Shown one piece after another: positions 32,470-42,554 of a stretch of 64,000 bases of DNA. The stretch comes from Sphingomonas psychrotolerans. GTDB taxonomy: Bacteria > Pseudomonadota > Alphaproteobacteria > Sphingomonadales > Sphingomonadaceae. The position numbers were made by a program, and so were the translations under genes. Location: contig NZ_CP024923.1 in NCBI RefSeq assembly GCF_002796605.1, forward strand, positions 3,975,501 to 4,039,500, written 5' to 3'. Within the stretch, counting starts at the first letter, position 1; the number at the start of each line of letters is the position of its first letter. The notes below the pieces were generated by a model. It was given only the letters and a program-made list of their open reading frames with translations, was not told where the DNA came from and ran no database searches.

Positions 32470-32558
32470 GTTGCGTTCGTCGCTCACGATTGCCCGTTGC
32501 GCCCGCCACAGGCCGGCGATACACTCCGATAATACACTGGATTACGGGGAATTCTTTC

Positions 32559-34595
32559 ATGAAGATCAGGGCTTTGGCGCGCCTCGCTGCGGGCGTCGCG
32601 CTGGTGGTGACTGCGCCTGCGTTTACTCAATCGACCTCCGGCGGGGCGAAATATGGCAGCTTCGGCGTCGATCTTACTGCGCAGAAGGCCGGGGTGAGGC
32701 CGGGCGACGATTTCTGGACCTTCGCCAATGGCGGCTGGAACGAGCGCACCCAGATCGCCGCCGACCGTGCCTCGGCCGGCTATGGCGTGCTGCTCACGGT
32801 CGAGGCCGAAGCGAACGTCCGCGCCATCCTCGACGACATGGCGAAGAACCCGGCCGCATATGGCGCGTCGGGCAAGCAGGTCGGGGATTTCTACGCGACG
32901 TGGATGGACGCGGCGGGGATCGAGGCGCGCGGAACCGCGCCGCTCAAGCCCTATCTGGGCAAGATCGCCGCAGTGAACGACCTTGCGGGTCTGCAGGTCC
33001 TTTTCGCAAGCCCCGGCTATGCCGCGCCGGTCGAGCTGGGGGTGATCCCCGACCTCGCCGATCCGACGCGCTACACCGCAGTCGCCGGTCAGGGCGGGCT
33101 CGGCATGCCCCGCGATTATTACCTGCTCGACGGCGAGAAATACGTCGCGTTCCGCACCGCCTATCGCGCCTATGTCCAGAAGATCCAGGAACTTGCCGGC
33201 ATCCCTGACGCGAGCGCCAGGGCTGATGCGATCGTCGCGCTCGAAACCGCGATCGCGAAGCAGCAATGGTCGCCCGAGCAGAGCCGGGACATCGCCAAGC
33301 TCAACGATCCGCAGCCGCTTTCCGGGCTGGAGGCCAAGGCGCCCGAGTTCGACTGGGCACTGATGCTCAAGACCGCCGGGCTCGATTCGTCGCCGACGGT
33401 GTTGATGACCCAGAACACCGCGATCACTGCGATCGGCAAGATCCTCGTCGCGACGCCGCTCCAGACGTGGAAGGACTATCTGGCATATCGCTTCGTCAGC
33501 GATCACGCGCAGTTCCTGCCCAAGGCGTTCGACGATACCCGCTTCGGCTTCTACTCGACCACGCTCAACGGCGTGCAGGTGCAGCGCGATCGCTGGAAGC
33601 GCGGCATACAGCTCACCAACGGCGCGTTGGGCGAGGCGGTCGGCGCGATCTATGTGGCGAAGCACTTCCCGCCGGCAGCCAAGGCGCAAATGAGCGAGCT
33701 GATCGAGAACCTCCGTGCCGCTTATCAGGAGCGGATCACCGGTTCGACCTGGATGGACGATGCCACGCGCAAGGCGGCGCTCGCCAAGCTGGCGGCGTTC
33801 GAGCCGCGGATCGGGCACCCCGATAAATATATCGACTATGCGGCGTTGAAGGTCGAGCGCGGCGATGTGCTCGGCAATGCGATGCGCGCGGGCGAATTCC
33901 AGCACCAGCTTCAGCTTCAGCGTTTCCCCAAGCCGGTGGATCGCTCGCTGTGGGAAATGACGCCGCAGACGGTGAACGCCTATTACAACCCCTTGGCGAA
34001 CCAGATCACTTTCCCGGCCGCGATCCTGCAGCCGCCTTATTTCGATCCCGACGCCGATCCGGCGGTGAACTATGGCGCGATCGGCGCGATCATCGGCCAC
34101 GAAATGGGGCATGGCTTCGACGATCAGGGCAGCATGTTCGGCCCCACCGGCAAGTTCGAGAATTGGTGGACCGATGCGGCCAAGAAGGGCTTCAAGGAGC
34201 GCACCGCGGCGCTCGCCGCCCAATATAATGCGTTCGAGCCGATCCCCGGCACCAAGATCAACGGCGCGCTGACTCTCGGCGAGAATATCGGCGATCTCGG
34301 CGGAGTCGAGGCGGCCTATGCGGCGTACCAGAAATATCAGGCCAAGCACGGCAAGGCGAAGGTGATCGACGGGCTCACCGGTGACCAGCGCTTCTTCCTG
34401 TCTTACGCGCAGGCGTGGCAGTCCAAGGCGCGCGAGAACGCCCAGCGCCAGCAGCTGCTCACCGATCCGCACTCGCCGCCGATGTTCCGGGTCAACGGTA
34501 TCGTCCGCAACGTCGACGCCTGGTACAAGGCGTTCGACATCAAGCCGGGCGACGCGCTCTATCTGCCCCCCGAGCAGCGCGTGCACATCTGGTAA
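32559..34595 (+). CDS. Secreted M13 family zinc metallopeptidase (neprilysin/PepO-like)
   Basis: A 678-residue zinc endopeptidase with a signal peptide (residues 1-23). The M13 signature runs VNAYYNP (substrate-binding), HEMGH at residues 514-518 (zinc ligands and catalytic Glu), GENIGDLGG with Glu575 as third zinc ligand, and a C-terminal VRNVDAW. These enzymes cleave short peptides in the periplasm. The ATG at 32559 is chosen for the signal peptide that follows it. It ends at a strong intrinsic terminator. It lies alone between acs and the 19-codon unit. Confidence 0.93.
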   Translation: MKIRALARLAAGVALVVTAPAFTQSTSGGAKYGSFGVDLTAQKAGVRPGDDFWTFANGGWNERTQIAADRASAGYGVLLTVEAEANVRAILDDMAKNPAAYGASGKQVGDFYATWMDAAGIEARGTAPLKPYLGKIAAVNDLAGLQVLFASPGYAAPVELGVIPDLADPTRYTAVAGQGGLGMPRDYYLLDGEKYVAFRTAYRAYVQKIQELAGIPDASARADAIVALETAIAKQQWSPEQSRDIAKLNDPQPLSGLEAKAPEFDWALMLKTAGLDSSPTVLMTQNTAITAIGKILVATPLQTWKDYLAYRFVSDHAQFLPKAFDDTRFGFYSTTLNGVQVQRDRWKRGIQLTNGALGEAVGAIYVAKHFPPAAKAQMSELIENLRAAYQERITGSTWMDDATRKAALAKLAAFEPRIGHPDKYIDYAALKVERGDVLGNAMRAGEFQHQLQLQRFPKPVDRSLWEMTPQTVNAYYNPLANQITFPAAILQPPYFDPDADPAVNYGAIGAIIGHEMGHGFDDQGSMFGPTGKFENWWTDAAKKGFKERTAALAAQYNAFEPIPGTKINGALTLGENIGDLGGVEAAYAAYQKYQAKHGKAKVIDGLTGDQRFFLSYAQAWQSKARENAQRQQLLTDPHSPPMFRVNGIVRNVDAWYKAFDIKPGDALYLPPEQRVHIW

Positions 34596-34671: not shown

Positions 34672-34759
34672 TTGCAGTTTGTGCAACCGCAATCCGGAAA
34701 CATTGCATTTGCCGCTGGCACCACAACGACCCAAATGCGTCCTATGCTGCATTGCAGCA
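34672..34759 (+). promoter_or_regulatory. PhaR-type operator region upstream of a 19-codon ORF
   Basis: This stretch holds TGC-rich inverted repeats unlike the flanking DNA. TTGCA and TGCAA arms with a 5-nt spacer lie at 34672-34686, a CATTGCATTTGC run is at 34701-34712, and a perfect palindrome TGCTGCATTGCAGCA is at 34745-34759. The core CTGC-ATT-GCAG has the form CTGC-N3-GCAG reported for PhaR of Paracoccus denitrificans. The same 15-mer occurs before the phasin gene at 41760-41774. Binding is inferred, and phaR itself is not in the window. Confidence 0.7.
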
Positions 34760-34782
34760 GAGACTTTCATGAGGGTTGTCCG

Positions 34783-34842
34783 ATGTTTTCCTTGATCGCG
34801 CTTTATCTCTCGCACCGCCGCAACGCCGCACAGGCAGGCTGA
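34783..34842 (+). CDS. Possible 19-residue micro-protein (or leader of a small RNA)
   Basis: An ATG at 34783 with GAGGG 8 nt upstream opens a 19-codon frame MFSLIALYLSHRRNAAQAG ending at 34842. The peptide has a short hydrophobic front (FSLIALYL) and a basic middle, so a membrane-associated or protein-binding role is thinkable. It has its own operator-like promoter region upstream and an intrinsic terminator 20 bp downstream, making a complete compact unit between two larger genes. Alternatively the product is a small RNA and the frame is incidental. No family is recognised. Confidence 0.5.
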   Translation: MFSLIALYLSHRRNAAQAG

Positions 34843-34862
34843 GCGAGCCCGCAAGTTCTACC

Positions 34863-34898
34863 GAAAAGGGGGAAGCGGCGACGCTCCCCCCTTTTCGT
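34863..34898 (+). terminator. Strong terminator of the 19-codon unit
   Basis: A near-perfect 15-bp stem runs from GAAAAGGGGGAAGCG through a GCGA loop to the matching arm ending CTTTTC at 34896. The arm ends in T-rich sequence, giving an intrinsic terminator 20 bp after the small ORF. On the other strand it could also end readthrough from the GFA gene. Confidence 0.8.
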
Positions 34899-34922: not shown

Positions 34923-34996
34923 TTCCCTGCGAAAGCAGGGGTCCAGAGCCCAGAGCGCATCGCTTGCAACCCTGGACCCCTGCTTTCGCAGGGGAA
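34923..34996. repeat. Inverted pair of GAAA-loop hairpins (REP-like)
   Basis: Two 24-25-nt arms at 34923-34946 and 34972-34996 are almost perfect reverse complements, so the whole 74 bp can fold as one long hairpin. Each arm also contains a small hairpin of its own, CCCTGC-GAAA-GCAGGG. The pair lies between convergent genes. The same design occurs at 52855-52935 and one half at 6098-6129. With the terminators, micro-ORF and operator sites this accounts for the 34596-35016 gap. Confidence 0.75.
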
Positions 34997-35419: not shown

Positions 35420-37213
35420 CTATGTGACCCCGTGCATCCATTTCTTGAGCGGCCAGCTGAGCAGCAGCAGGAGCACGCCCAGCCCGATCGCCCAATAGGA
35501 GATCAAGGTGAACATATCGAGGTAGGTATTGAGGCTGACCTTGAGGTTGGTCACCTGCCCACCCACCGTATCGACGCTGGCGATCTGCGCGATCATCCCG
35601 GCGAAATATTGCGCCACCGAGATCGACAGGAACCACACGCCCATCATCAACCCGACCACGCGCGCGATCGACAGCTTTGTGATCATGCTGAGACCCACCG
35701 GCGAGATGCAAAGCTCGGCGAAGCTGTGGATTAGATATAGGCCCGCAAGCCACCAGAGCCCGACCTGAAAGTTGGTATCGGCGAAGCTGGCGCCCCAGAC
35801 GAGCAGCAGGAAGCCGCCCGCCACGCCGATCAACGCGATGCCGAATTTGACCGGAATTGAGGGCTCGAGCCCGCGCCTGGCGAGGCCGGTCCACAACATG
35901 CTCATGAACGGCGCGAGCAGGATGATGAAGGCGGCGTTGAAGAACTGGGTCTGCGGGGCGGTGATGCTGAACAAGCCGAACACCGAGAGATCGGTATTGC
36001 GGTCGGCGAACAGAGTGAGCGACGAGCCGGCCTGCTCGAACAAGGTCCAGAACACCACGTTGAACACGATCAGCGTCATTGCCGCGAGCATCATCTGGAA
36101 TTCCTGGCGGCTGCCCGCGACGAACGACCAGATCAGAATGCCCGGGACCGAGAGAAGGAAGGTGCCGAACAGGAATTTGCCCATCAGCGGCAGTGAGGCG
36201 ATGTAGCCGAGGATCCCCGATCCCGCCGCGGGCTCGACCGAGTTCATCAGGTTGACGTAGAGGAAGTAGAACACCGGCACGATCAATAGCGCGCCGGCAT
36301 AGATGAACCATTGCTGGCGCTCGACCTCGGGGCGTGCCGGTGGCTCCCCATAACCGGCGAGCGAGTTGCCGTTGAACTGGATCAGCGCCCACGAGACCAT
36401 CATGCCGATCGCGGCGAGGCCGAAGCCCGCCCACCAGCCGAGCACCACTGCAAGCAACGGGCAGAGGATCTGGGAGAAGAACGATCCGATGTTGATGCCC
36501 ATGTAGAAGATGGTGAAGCCGGCGTCGCGTCGCCTGTCGCCGACTTGGTACAGTTCGCCGACCATCGTGGAGATGTTGGGCTTGAAGAAGCCGTTGCCGG
36601 TCGACACCATCGACAGGCCGATCAGCATCACCATCACGTAGAACGGGCTGCGATCAGCGTCCGATTCGAAGGCGCCCTTGGCGATCTTGCGGACTGGCGC
36701 GCCATTCTCGAGCAGGTCGACCGAGCCGTCGTCATTGCCCTTGATCTCGAGCTTGCGCGCGCCGTCTACGACATAGCGGACTTCGCGATCACCGGCCTTT
36801 TCGATCGAGACTTCGTAGCGCTGGCCGTCGATGCTCGCGTGAGGCTGCGCGGTCGGGCCGCCGAAGCACAGGATCAGATAGCCCAGCGACATGACGATCG
36901 CGCCGAACTTCACGGCGCGCTTCGAGCCGAGGAACTGGTCGGCGAGGTACCCGCCGATTAGCGGAGTGAGGTAAACCAGCGCAGTGAACCCGCCATAGAT
37001 ACCCGTCGCCTGCCGGTCGCCGAACATGAAATGCTGGGTGAGGTAGAGCGTGAGCAGCGCGCGCATGCCGTAGAAGCCGAAGCGCTCCCACATCTCGGTG
37101 GTGAACATGCGCGCGAGCTGGCGGGGATGGCCGAACCAGGTCTTTTCCGCCGCGGGATTGACGTGGCTGATATCGGGTTCTGCCGGGCTGTCGGCGGTTG
37201 GCGTTTCGACCAT
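35420..37213 (-). CDS. POT/PTR2-family proton-coupled peptide transporter
   Basis: A 597-residue MFS transporter of the proton-dependent oligopeptide family. TEMWERFGFYGMRALL is the ExxERFxYYG motif on helix 1 and FTIFYMGINIGSF the PTR2 signature on helix 5. About 60 residues (~124-185, from QPHASIDGQRYEVS to ESDADRS) form a hydrophilic insertion between early helices, larger than in compact bacterial POTs. It imports di- and tripeptides with protons. A ~140-bp repeated element lies in its upstream region. The GFA gene follows directly. Confidence 0.92.
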   Translation of the reverse strand: MVETPTADSPAEPDISHVNPAAEKTWFGHPRQLARMFTTEMWERFGFYGMRALLTLYLTQHFMFGDRQATGIYGGFTALVYLTPLIGGYLADQFLGSKRAVKFGAIVMSLGYLILCFGGPTAQPHASIDGQRYEVSIEKAGDREVRYVVDGARKLEIKGNDDGSVDLLENGAPVRKIAKGAFESDADRSPFYVMVMLIGLSMVSTGNGFFKPNISTMVGELYQVGDRRRDAGFTIFYMGINIGSFFSQILCPLLAVVLGWWAGFGLAAIGMMVSWALIQFNGNSLAGYGEPPARPEVERQQWFIYAGALLIVPVFYFLYVNLMNSVEPAAGSGILGYIASLPLMGKFLFGTFLLSVPGILIWSFVAGSRQEFQMMLAAMTLIVFNVVFWTLFEQAGSSLTLFADRNTDLSVFGLFSITAPQTQFFNAAFIILLAPFMSMLWTGLARRGLEPSIPVKFGIALIGVAGGFLLLVWGASFADTNFQVGLWWLAGLYLIHSFAELCISPVGLSMITKLSIARVVGLMMGVWFLSISVAQYFAGMIAQIASVDTVGGQVTNLKVSLNTYLDMFTLISYWAIGLGVLLLLLSWPLKKWMHGVT

Positions 37214-39863: not shown

Positions 39864-39957
39864 GTGATGCGTTCCTACGCCATTCCTGCGTGTCCGGGAA
39901 TGACGAGTTGGCTTGTCGGCGCTAAAGGTTCGCAGTCGCCGATCGAGAGGGAAACGC

Positions 39958-41679
39958 ATGGAAGATACCACGACGCCGCCTCCCCGCCTCGAGGACCTCC
40001 AGCACTGGACCTGGGTGTTGGGCAAGGCACAGCAGATGATGCTCGAGAATGGCTTCGATCTGATGCGCCAGGTGCCGACGGCCCCGGCGATGGATCCGGC
40101 GAGCGCGCTCAGGGCCAGTGCGAACTTCTGGGCCGACACGATGCAGCTGTGGCAGCGCTTCCTTGATCCGGCGCATGCGATTCCGTTCGAGGAGACGCCC
40201 GAACAGGCGAAGGACAAGCGCTTCAAGGCGCCGCAATGGCGGGAGGAGCCGGTGTTCGACTTCCTGCGCCAGAGCTATTTCGTGATTGCCGACAATCTGC
40301 TGAAGGGCGTCGACGCACTGGAAGGCGTCGATCCGAAGCAGAAGGAGCAGATCCGCTTCGCGACCAAAGGCTTCATCGACGCAGTGAGCCCGACCAATTT
40401 CCCCGCGACAAATCCGCAGGTGCTCGAGAAGATCGTCGAGACCAAGGGCGAGAGCCTGCTCAAGGGCCTGCAGAACATGTTGTCGGACATCGCCAAGGGG
40501 CAGATGACGCAGACGGCGGAAGGTGCGTTCGAACTGGGCAAGAACCTTGCGATGACGCCGGGCAAGGTGATCAAACGCACGCCGCTCTACGAGCTGATCC
40601 AATATTCGCCGGTAACCGAGGAGGTCTATGCCACGCCGCTGATCATCTTCCCGCCCTGGATCAATCGCTTCTACATCCTCGACCTGACCCCGGAGAAGAG
40701 TTTCATCGGCTGGGCGGTCGCGCAGGGGCTGACCGTGTTCGTCGTGTCGTGGAAGTCTGCCGACGCCAGCATGAAGGACGTGGTGTGGGACGATTATGTC
40801 GAACGCGGCCAGATCGACGCGATCGACACTGTCCGGGAGGTGCTCGGTGTCGAAGGGGTGCATGCGATCGGCTATTGCGTAGCGGGGACGACGTTGGCGG
40901 CAACGCTGGCCGTGCTCGCAGCGCGGGGCGAGCCCGAAAAAGTGAAGAGCGCGACCTTCTTCACCGCGCAGGTGGATTTCTCCGAGGCCGGCGACCTGCA
41001 GATGTTCGTCGATGACGATCAGCTGGCGCGGATCAAGAGCCTCAGCGGCGAAGGATTCCTCGACGGGCGCTATATGGCGATGACTTTCAACCTGTTGCGT
41101 GGCCGCGACCTGATCTGGAGCTATGTGACCAACAATTATCTGATGGGGCAGGATTACGTGCCGTTCGATCTGCTTCACTGGAATTCGGACGTCACCAACC
41201 TGCCCTCGACCTGGCATTTGAGCTATCTCACGGATCTGTACCGCGACAACAAATTGGTGACGCCGGGGCTGCTCTCGATCGCGGGAACCCCGATCGATCT
41301 CGGCAAGGTGGCGACTCCGACCTATGTCCAGGCTGGTCGCGAGGACCATATCGCACCTGCAGCAAGCGTGTGGAAAATCACCCACCATCTCAAGGGGCCG
41401 CTCAAGTTCGTGCTCGCCGGATCGGGGCACATCGCCGGGGTGGTGAACCCGCCGGCCGCGGGGAAATACCAATATTGGGTCAACAACGCGAAGGTCGAGA
41501 CGCTCGCCGAGTTCATGGCCGGCGCGAAGGAGACCAAGGGAAGCTGGTGGCCCGATTGGGTTGGGTGGATCGAAAGCGTCGATTCGAGGAAGGTGGGTGC
41601 AAAAGGTGCACGTGTGCCCGGAAAGGGCAAGCTCAAGGCGATCGAGGATGCACCGGGGAGCTACGTCCGCACGCGCTGA
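39958..41679 (+). CDS. phaC: Class I poly(3-hydroxyalkanoate) synthase
   Basis: PhaC polymerises (R)-3-hydroxyacyl-CoA into storage polyester on the granule surface. The 573-residue protein has the lipase-like box GYCVAGT with nucleophile Cys307, the catalytic Asp463 in GREDHIAP and His491 in GSGHIAG. Cys, Asp and His occur in the order and spacing seen in the Cupriavidus enzyme. Class I is indicated by length and the absence of a separate PhaE or PhaR subunit. AGAGGGAAA lies before the ATG. The phasin gene follows 116 bp later with its own operators, and phaB lies 19 kb away. Confidence 0.95.
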   Translation: MEDTTTPPPRLEDLQHWTWVLGKAQQMMLENGFDLMRQVPTAPAMDPASALRASANFWADTMQLWQRFLDPAHAIPFEETPEQAKDKRFKAPQWREEPVFDFLRQSYFVIADNLLKGVDALEGVDPKQKEQIRFATKGFIDAVSPTNFPATNPQVLEKIVETKGESLLKGLQNMLSDIAKGQMTQTAEGAFELGKNLAMTPGKVIKRTPLYELIQYSPVTEEVYATPLIIFPPWINRFYILDLTPEKSFIGWAVAQGLTVFVVSWKSADASMKDVVWDDYVERGQIDAIDTVREVLGVEGVHAIGYCVAGTTLAATLAVLAARGEPEKVKSATFFTAQVDFSEAGDLQMFVDDDQLARIKSLSGEGFLDGRYMAMTFNLLRGRDLIWSYVTNNYLMGQDYVPFDLLHWNSDVTNLPSTWHLSYLTDLYRDNKLVTPGLLSIAGTPIDLGKVATPTYVQAGREDHIAPAASVWKITHHLKGPLKFVLAGSGHIAGVVNPPAAGKYQYWVNNAKVETLAEFMAGAKETKGSWWPDWVGWIESVDSRKVGAKGARVPGKGKLKAIEDAPGSYVRTR

Positions 41680-41708: not shown

Positions 41709-41774
41709 TTGTGCACTGCACAATATTTCTTCTTGCAATGCACGCAACTGCTCTTTATATGCTGCATTGCAGCA
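41709..41774 (+). promoter_or_regulatory. PhaR-type operator region upstream of the phasin gene
   Basis: Three TGC-rich sites are packed in 66 bp: a perfect palindrome TTGTGCACTGCACAA (41709-41723), TTGCAATGCACGCAA (41733-41747), and the perfect palindrome TGCTGCATTGCAGCA (41760-41774). The last contains CTGC-N3-GCAG, the PhaR recognition form, and follows TATAT as if placed over the start of transcription. PhaR repression of phasin is well established in PHA-producing bacteria. The exact 15-mer recurs at 34745. Confidence 0.75.
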
Positions 41775-41795: not shown

Positions 41796-42554
41796 ATGGC
41801 CACCAAGGGACCGAAAGCGCCGGCGAAGCCGATCGCTCCGAAGCCTGCGGCGCGCGCCACGAAGCCGGCAGCGCCCAAGGCTGAGGCTGTCGCAGCCAAA
41901 ACCGAGAAGAAGCCCGTGCCGAAAGCCGTCATCGAAGCAGTTGCTCCGGTGAATGCTGCCGGACCGGCTCCGGTCGTGGAAACAGCGTCGCAGGAAGTAG
42001 TGAAAACCGTTCGAGTGGCGGCAGAGCAGACTGAAGTCGCCGTCGCGGAAACCGTCAACGCAGCCGAAGCCGTCATCGAGACCGCCGCGGCGCCCATCGT
42101 CAAGGAAACCAGCACCATGGCTACCAATTTCGAGAACAACACCGTCAAGGCCCAAGCTCTGTTCGCCGACTGGAACGATCGCACCAAGACCGCCGTCGAG
42201 AAGTCGACCAAGCTGGTCGAGGAAGCCAACGAGTTCGCCAAGGGCAACCTCGAGGCCGTCGTCGAGTCGAGCCGCATCGCTGCCAAGGGCCTCGAGACCC
42301 TCGGCCAGGATGCTGCCGAATATGGCCGCAAGTCGTTCGAGAACGCGACTGCCGCACTGAAGACGCTCGCGACCGTCAAGTCGCCGGCCGATTTCTTCAA
42401 GCTGCAGAGCGACTTCGTTCGCGGCGCATTCGACGCGTATGTCGCTGAAGCTTCGAAGAATACCGAAGCCGTGCTCAAGCTCGCCGGCGACGCCGCGCAG
42501 CCGATCTCCGGTCGCTTCGCGGTTGCCGCCGAGAAGGTGAAGACCGTCGCCTGA
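41796..42554 (+). CDS. Phasin with long Ala/Pro/Lys-rich N-terminal extension
   Basis: Phasins coat PHA granules. Residues ~108-252 form the family's helical domain (from MATNFENN, then NDRTKTAVEKSTKLVEE). Before it lies a ~107-residue low-complexity segment, with Ala-Pro-Lys repeats (PAKPIAPKPAARATKPAAPK) and later Val/Glu-rich sequence, resembling the basic tails that let PhaF-type phasins bind DNA. An internal ATG at 42117 begins exactly at the core domain and could yield a short form. The ATG at 41796 has AGGGGA upstream. It has a strong terminator and PhaR-like operators. Confidence 0.9.
   Translation: MATKGPKAPAKPIAPKPAARATKPAAPKAEAVAAKTEKKPVPKAVIEAVAPVNAAGPAPVVETASQEVVKTVRVAAEQTEVAVAETVNAAEAVIETAAAPIVKETSTMATNFENNTVKAQALFADWNDRTKTAVEKSTKLVEEANEFAKGNLEAVVESSRIAAKGLETLGQDAAEYGRKSFENATAALKTLATVKSPADFFKLQSDFVRGAFDAYVAEASKNTEAVLKLAGDAAQPISGRFAVAAEKVKTVA

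Follow-up and report, generated by a model that had tools for sequence, protein, structure and literature searches.

A conserved sphingomonad micropeptide gene as a probable member of the PHA regulon

PhaR sites conform to CTGC-N3/4-GCAG, the N4 variant being quoted here as given in an earlier reading of this DNA made from its letters alone (the sequence-only reading). The closest described system to the locus reported here is the PhaR (AniA) regulon of alphaproteobacteria: in the excerpts of PMC12542648, PhaR of R. sphaeroides binds CTGCNNNGCAG, and PhaR of S. meliloti represses phasins, PHB depolymerase, exopolysaccharide genes and the sRNA MmgR. The present locus, in Sphingomonas psychrotolerans, resembles this regulon in that a CTGC-N3-GCAG operator lies over the -10/start region and is shared with a phasin gene and, as in S. 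meliloti, in that other perfect sites lie at surface-polysaccharide genes (PMC12542648, same excerpts). It differs in possessing an extra conserved block in the middle of the promoter and in being found only in sphingomonads; the text of PMC12542648 does not contain the words "small protein", and its excerpts yielded no micropeptide target. MmgR, too, is a short stand-alone unit under PhaR (PMC12542648, excerpts); however, it is an RNA regulator, whereas the sphingomonad unit is a conserved coding sequence. Phasins (Phasin_2, PF09361) are connected to the micropeptide gene by an identical operator, yet the phasin is a protein of 252 aa with a PF09361 domain, and none of the 21 micropeptide members compared with Pfam matched any of its families.

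A further point of comparison is the ssrA tag, whose terminal Ala-Ala is recognised by ClpX and whose AAND portion is recognised by SspB. The long members of the family carry a tail, AN[D/E]...xAA, that resembles the local tag AANDNEALAIAA; unlike the tag, this tail is gene-encoded, belongs to a small protein, is gone from the short form in the window, and usually has 8-9 residues from AN[D/E] to AA, compared to 6 in the tag. Among ssrA-like C-degrons, cleaved RseA, which ends in VAA, is listed with SspB/ClpX in the excerpted part of PMC8138137. The PhaR regulon, C-degrons and small proteins as a class have been described before; the family, its operator link and the combination were not found in the open-licence literature searched. 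The string MFSLIALY was absent from it, and nothing on the gene was found in open-licence work on the PhaR regulon, sphingomonad small proteins, PHA small proteins, ssrA-like small proteins or Caulobacter SspB. The wording of the operator motif does not occur in PMC9049629, nor do PhaR, PHB, AniA or polyhydroxy in PMC10117765.

The window is the whole stretch of DNA that was analysed, 64,000 nucleotides in length. The sequence-only reading had pointed to a compact unit within it, and the 15-mer, the ribosome binding site, the ORF and the 3' hairpin are all in place, with GAGGG and the 19-codon ORF located as it had stated. The parts of the locus and its reference genes are as follows:

32490..34595, + strand: M13 peptidase gene, the upstream neighbour, used for synteny
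34673..34686, + strand: distal TGC-type repeat TGCAGTTTGTGCAA; such an element occurs in 41/57 family promoters, against 7% of random places
34704..34712, + strand: mid block TGCATTTGC of TGCA-N-TTGC type, a family promoter element found in the alignment of relatives
34743..34748, + strand: putative -10-like hexamer TATGCT, overlapping the operator, in a TATGCTGC register common to the phasin and galU promoters
34745..34759, + strand: PhaR-type operator TGCTGCATTGCAGCA, a conserved 15-nt dyad containing CTGC-N3-GCAG
34771..34775, + strand: ribosome binding site GAGGG; by eye, most relatives have a purine-rich GAGG- or AGGG-like stretch
34783..34842, + strand: micropeptide gene MFSLIALYLSHRRNAAQAG, 19 aa plus stop with its ATG at 34783, the positional orthologue of 36-45-aa proteins
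34862..34897, + strand: hairpin with a GCGA tetraloop by folding, its core conserved; a probable terminator that could serve both strands
35420..37213, - strand: POT-family transporter gene, a neighbour used for synteny and for a tree
39913..41679, + strand: PHA synthase gene phaC (PhaC_N, PF07167, confirmed by domain search), given as context
41760..41774, + strand: operator at the phasin promoter, an exact match to that of the micropeptide gene
41796..42554, + strand: phasin gene, 252 aa (Phasin_2, PF09361, confirmed by domain search)

An earlier ATG at 34769 opens only 8 codons in another frame and is absent in the close relatives G125 and G207. A promoter scan reported no consensus promoter around 34743..34748. 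The hairpin had been described as a strong intrinsic terminator: it is indeed strong by folding and conserved, but its GC stem is followed by TTTT only, and a scan for consensus terminators called none here. A hairpin core AGCG-GNRA-CGCT stands 3' of the ORF in 8/8 short-form genomes, with the loops GCGA (five times), GTGA, GAAA and GCAA, and a T6 tail follows it in one of the eight.

A PhaR-type operator in a fixed place

The palindrome shared by the two promoters had been noted before, and both copies were located as exact matches. Even with as many as 3 mismatches allowed, the window has no further copy, and the whole genome holds three exact copies. Perfect sites of the 12-position form TGCTGCNNNGCAGCA (TGCTGC-N3-GCAGCA) number four in the genome, against about 0.6 predicted by its base composition; they precede the phasin gene, the gene that we take to be galU, a Bac_transf sugar transferase gene and the micropeptide gene. 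Across the family, at least 10 of the 12 positions are matched 16-28 nt before the start in 57/58 places, and all 12 in 29/58. These places come from 53 genomes of the genus, from G618 and from four Sphingobium loci; because L122 is apparently the same genome as G618, their true number is probably 57. Slots drawn at random from the same loci reached at least 10/12 in 26/9,761 cases and all 12 in 0/9,761, and 83/5,659 of all ATGs in these loci, micropeptide genes included, had an operator at this lower threshold. The distance in G208 was measured from the second codon, the start being an upstream GTG. The only miss is G262, where the ORF is broken as well (7 codons, a real decay). Throughout the family, an operator of the CTGC-N3-GCAG type holds a fixed position.

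The TGC-rich repeats that the sequence-only reading saw upstream of both palindromes are present, and upstream repeats proved to be a family-wide trait. Between -52 and -32 relative to the palindrome, 56/57 family promoters have a block of TGCA-N-TTGC type, compared to 1% of random places, and the distal repeat is the less frequent of the two. G262 was left out of the upstream, tail and codon counts, as were L109-L118, L120 and L124-L127, which appear to repeat genomes already counted. When the phasin promoter was searched with the same pattern, the mid block did not turn up, the TGC repeats there being different ones; for this reason, a second regulator is possible, or a variant PhaR site, and TGCATTTGC may be read either as a second PhaR-type site or as the site of another regulator. 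The TATGCTGC register recurs at the phasin promoter (41758-41765).

The host encodes PhaR (PF07879 at G000:C1:2434841, G000 being the host genome). Since PhaR is near-universal in the genus, being present in 291/295 genomes and in all 53 that bear the gene, its co-occurrence is uninformative and adds little. The phasin-like genes of G002 and G011 are preceded by an operator of the same form, and among the matches listed for 41 genomes only six sites stand before a micropeptide or phasin-like gene. With at most one mismatch the genome has 64 sites (16 for the reversed pattern); operator-like sites are therefore not confined to PHA genes. As far as sequence can speak to it, the suggestion that the unit belongs to the PHA regulon is well supported by the operator held in common with the phasin gene, by where this operator lies and by the remaining perfect sites, and the micropeptide gene is likely to be controlled by PhaR.

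A micropeptide core under purifying selection

In a DNA comparison with 61 genomes, the palindrome preceded a 45- or 44-codon ORF starting MFSLIALYFAHRR in two same-genus genomes; of the matches, G002 and G023 clearly belonged to the family, and G029, matched only weakly (E 0.39), turned out to belong as well. The other matches were mostly chance, and L006 and L013, on inspection, are not members. A codon pattern for MF-x-LIALY was found in 21/250 same-genus genomes, at one place each and in every case at the start of such an ORF, the reversed pattern being found in 3 genomes. A profile search with E up to 0.01 recovered the family in 53/295 same-genus genomes, one copy each, leaving 242/295 without a match at this cut-off. 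Extended to 397 genomes, the search gave 151 genomes matching at E up to 1, mostly by chance, from which the host's own, G618 and G008 rows were retained; inspection outside the genus covered L082, L091 and L096, which hold no such ORF, and members in other genera may have been missed. A large protein database contributed 117 family members by profile, assigned, where a source is given, to Sphingomonas, Sphingobium, Novosphingobium or Pseudomonadota and labelled hypothetical or uncharacterized. The long forms measure about 36-52 aa. No Pfam or NCBIfam model matched the 21 members tested, and one 42-aa member had no match on plasmids.

The codons of these genes have changed in the manner of a coding sequence. 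Of 57 genes, 41 have a TCN codon for serine 3 and 15 an AGY codon, the remaining one having threonine, and leucine 4 is coded by both CTN and TTR. The pN/pS ratio over codons 2-13, from simple pairwise counts uncorrected for saturation, is 0.41 for the 57 genes, 0.27 for the 8 short forms and 0.14 for G000, G125, G136 and G207. The core MFSLIALY..xxRR is under purifying selection, short forms included. The ORF of the window shares the core (MFSLI.L....RR), the orthologous position and the operator, and it is almost certainly a translated, selected micropeptide. A check of conservation in relatives had been proposed; once run, it found ORF, operator and hairpin retained with synonymous codon change, and this conservation settles the question of a chance origin.

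The 19-aa ORF of the window is a shortened orthologue of the family of about 36-52 aa. Its gene order, Acs, M13 peptidase, micropeptide, (GFA), POT transporter, nitroreductase-like and GntR, is common to S. gei (19 aa, L120) and to ten loci with 44-45-aa proteins (L109-L118), the POT gene being a distant one in three of the ten (L111, L117 and L118); the labels Acs, OMF, nitroreductase-like and GntR are our presumptive ones, taken from the sequence. The 36-39-aa forms also adjoin a POT gene. Around the remaining members, within 0.6-6 kb on each side, no neighbours of the Acs/M13/POT type were found, and in six loci outside the Acs/POT-linked ones no common neighbour was apparent by eye. In a tree of the POT proteins, the 16-19-aa forms of G000, G125, G207, G250 and G136 make up one clade (100/98), which joins five genomes with 36-39-aa forms (94/94). 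The protein shrank to 16-19 aa in this clade of the window. The short form of G065 is accompanied by a different POT protein placed elsewhere in the tree, and G179 and G259 have no usable POT stretch and lie outside it; a second loss of the tail is therefore possible.

Tail, core and a possible mechanism

Between the core and the end, the long forms are nearly unalignable; the end itself is constant. All 49 of 49 terminate in Ala-Ala (25 LAA, 18 RAA; shuffles gave a mean of 5.2 and a maximum of 13). The element [AVP]N[DE] is found in 36/49 (shuffle mean 1.9, maximum 6), its N lying 8-13 residues (for the most part 12-13) before the C-terminus; the AN[DE] element is absent in 13/49. In the database set, 115/115 distinct members end in AA, a count somewhat biased because the last columns of the search profile are AA, and 70/115 have an AN[D/E] element near the end; the length limits of this profile exclude short forms, and the relatives are not independent. 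The tmRNA tag ANDNEALAIAA, which is AANDNEALAIAA with the tmRNA-borne alanine, was found in 25/25 genomes tested, and the host encodes the SspB adaptor. On the strength of the AA end, the AN[D/E] element, the local tag, SspB and the RseA precedent, the tail can be read as a gene-encoded, ssrA-like degron, and the chances that it serves ClpXP in this way appear to us about even. The copy in the window ends in AG, and five of the eight short forms have no AA end; a degron therefore cannot be the core function.

In the core, about nine hydrophobic residues in a row precede basic ones. Its predicted structure, a model of the peptide alone and as such uninformative on partners, is a single helix of moderate mean pLDDT (69), with residues 1-10 at 88. 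The helical hydrophobic moment is low (0.2-0.3 over residues 1-11), unlike that of a classic amphipathic granule-binding helix. Because the core is too short to cross a membrane, we propose, as a guess that is somewhat less likely to be right than wrong, that it docks on the face of a PHA granule or of a membrane.

Taken as a whole, the best explanation is a monocistronic, conserved sphingomonad micropeptide gene of the PHA regulon, to which we assign a probability of about 0.6. In the absence of PHA, PhaR would likely occupy the operator across the -10/start region and repress the gene; as PHA granules form they would titrate PhaR off the DNA, and the micropeptide would probably be made together with the phasin. 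The hydrophobic start and the basic residues might then dock the peptide on a hydrophobic surface, be it granule or inner membrane. In the long relatives, SspB and ClpXP may recognise the free tail, which would shorten the life of the peptide or bring the protease to the docking place; in the clade of the window the tail has been lost, and what is left would be the docking core. We also entertain, as a rather improbable extension, that the long forms imitate the tmRNA tag, are encoded by a gene and are placed on the surface of PHA granules or on the membrane once PhaR is titrated, the head holding on and the AAN[D/E]...AA tail recruiting SspB and ClpXP, such that carbon-storage status would locally control proteolysis, or the mimics would compete with ssrA-tagged proteins; the clade of the window would possess the head only. 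On the preferred reading, an overlooked protein family, with members down to 16 aa that annotation has missed, joins the presumed PHA-storage regulon. The short forms would offer a natural series in which an apparent degradation tail was lost within one clade with the core still under selection, and the ssrA-like tail would provide a testable link from carbon storage to ClpXP proteolysis.

Alternative readings and other operator sites

The sequence-only reading had left peptide and RNA side by side. A regulatory sRNA like MmgR, with an incidental ORF, would agree with the repression of mmgR by PhaR in S. meliloti (PMC12542648, excerpts) and with a transcript that would be short and end in a conserved hairpin; nevertheless, the ORF has been conserved through codon changes that are synonymous or that switch serine between TCN and AGY, its length varies by whole codons, from 16 to about 52, among species, the whole transcript is no more structured than its shuffles (z -1.0), and no Rfam family reached its gathering score within the window. 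The conserved ORF with its serine-codon switches, the unstructured transcript and the lack of an Rfam match decide for a peptide gene, and the RNA reading, rejected on these grounds, keeps only a very slight chance. About as slight is the chance that the gene in the lineage of the window is a decaying remnant of a longer protein: truncation from 36-45 to 16-19 aa in one clade and the true decay of G262 would suit such a course, but the core of the short forms has a pN/pS of 0.14-0.27, and operator, ORF and hairpin are kept in all eight of them.

Two further explanations retain the micropeptide, and we consider both unlikely, to a similar degree. The operator may be read by a regulator other than PhaR, with a coincidental or indirect PHA link; the mid block, whose pattern recurs in 56/57 family promoters and yet gave no match at that of the phasin, speaks for this, as do the 64 near-matching places in the genome. 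It has to be set against the identical 15-mer at the phasin promoter, the TATGCTGC register shared with phasin and galU, the match to the published PhaR site and the operators of the same form before the phasin-like genes of G002 and G011. Alternatively, PhaR would control a membrane-bound small protein acting on exopolysaccharide export or on an inner-membrane enzyme, with Ala-Ala as a routine turnover signal. Here the hydrophobic start followed by Arg-Arg, the perfect sites before galU and the sugar transferase gene, and the control of exopolysaccharide by PhaR in S. meliloti (PMC12542648, excerpts) are countered by a hydrophobic stretch that at about 9-10 residues cannot reach across a membrane, and by the lack of a common neighbour in the loci inspected outside the Acs/POT-linked ones.

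Several other sites deserve mention. The perfect operator at G000:C1:81806-81820 (L177) is just before galU, beside a UDP-glucose dehydrogenase-like gene, and has the TATGCTGC register; that at G000:C1:61120-61134 (L001) lies 80 nt before the Bac_transf sugar transferase, given the chosen ATG, and within a longer open frame. Perfect operators before these two genes suggest that PhaR may also control exopolysaccharide in the host. A near-perfect operator, TGTTGCGATGCAGCA, at G000:C1:632902-632916 (L184), stands between divergent genes that look like a TonB-dependent receptor and a DeoR-type regulator; the names GalU, UDP-glucose dehydrogenase, TonB receptor and DeoR are presumed from our reading of the sequence. 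A CTGCANTGCAGCA site precedes an ORF of 114-122 aa in L038 (G001), L047 (G019) and L044 (G021); that of G001, MKLNTDEDRV...FEAIVKQQAIAATYNRGSVTLAPH, has no Pfam match, that of G019 is related to it, and the start of that of G021 looks alike. Finally, a large inverted repeat with arms like CCCTGCGAAAGCAGGGGTCCAG occupies 34924-34996, between the micropeptide and GFA genes; it looks like an intergenic repeat element, and similar letters occur downstream of the G125 copy.
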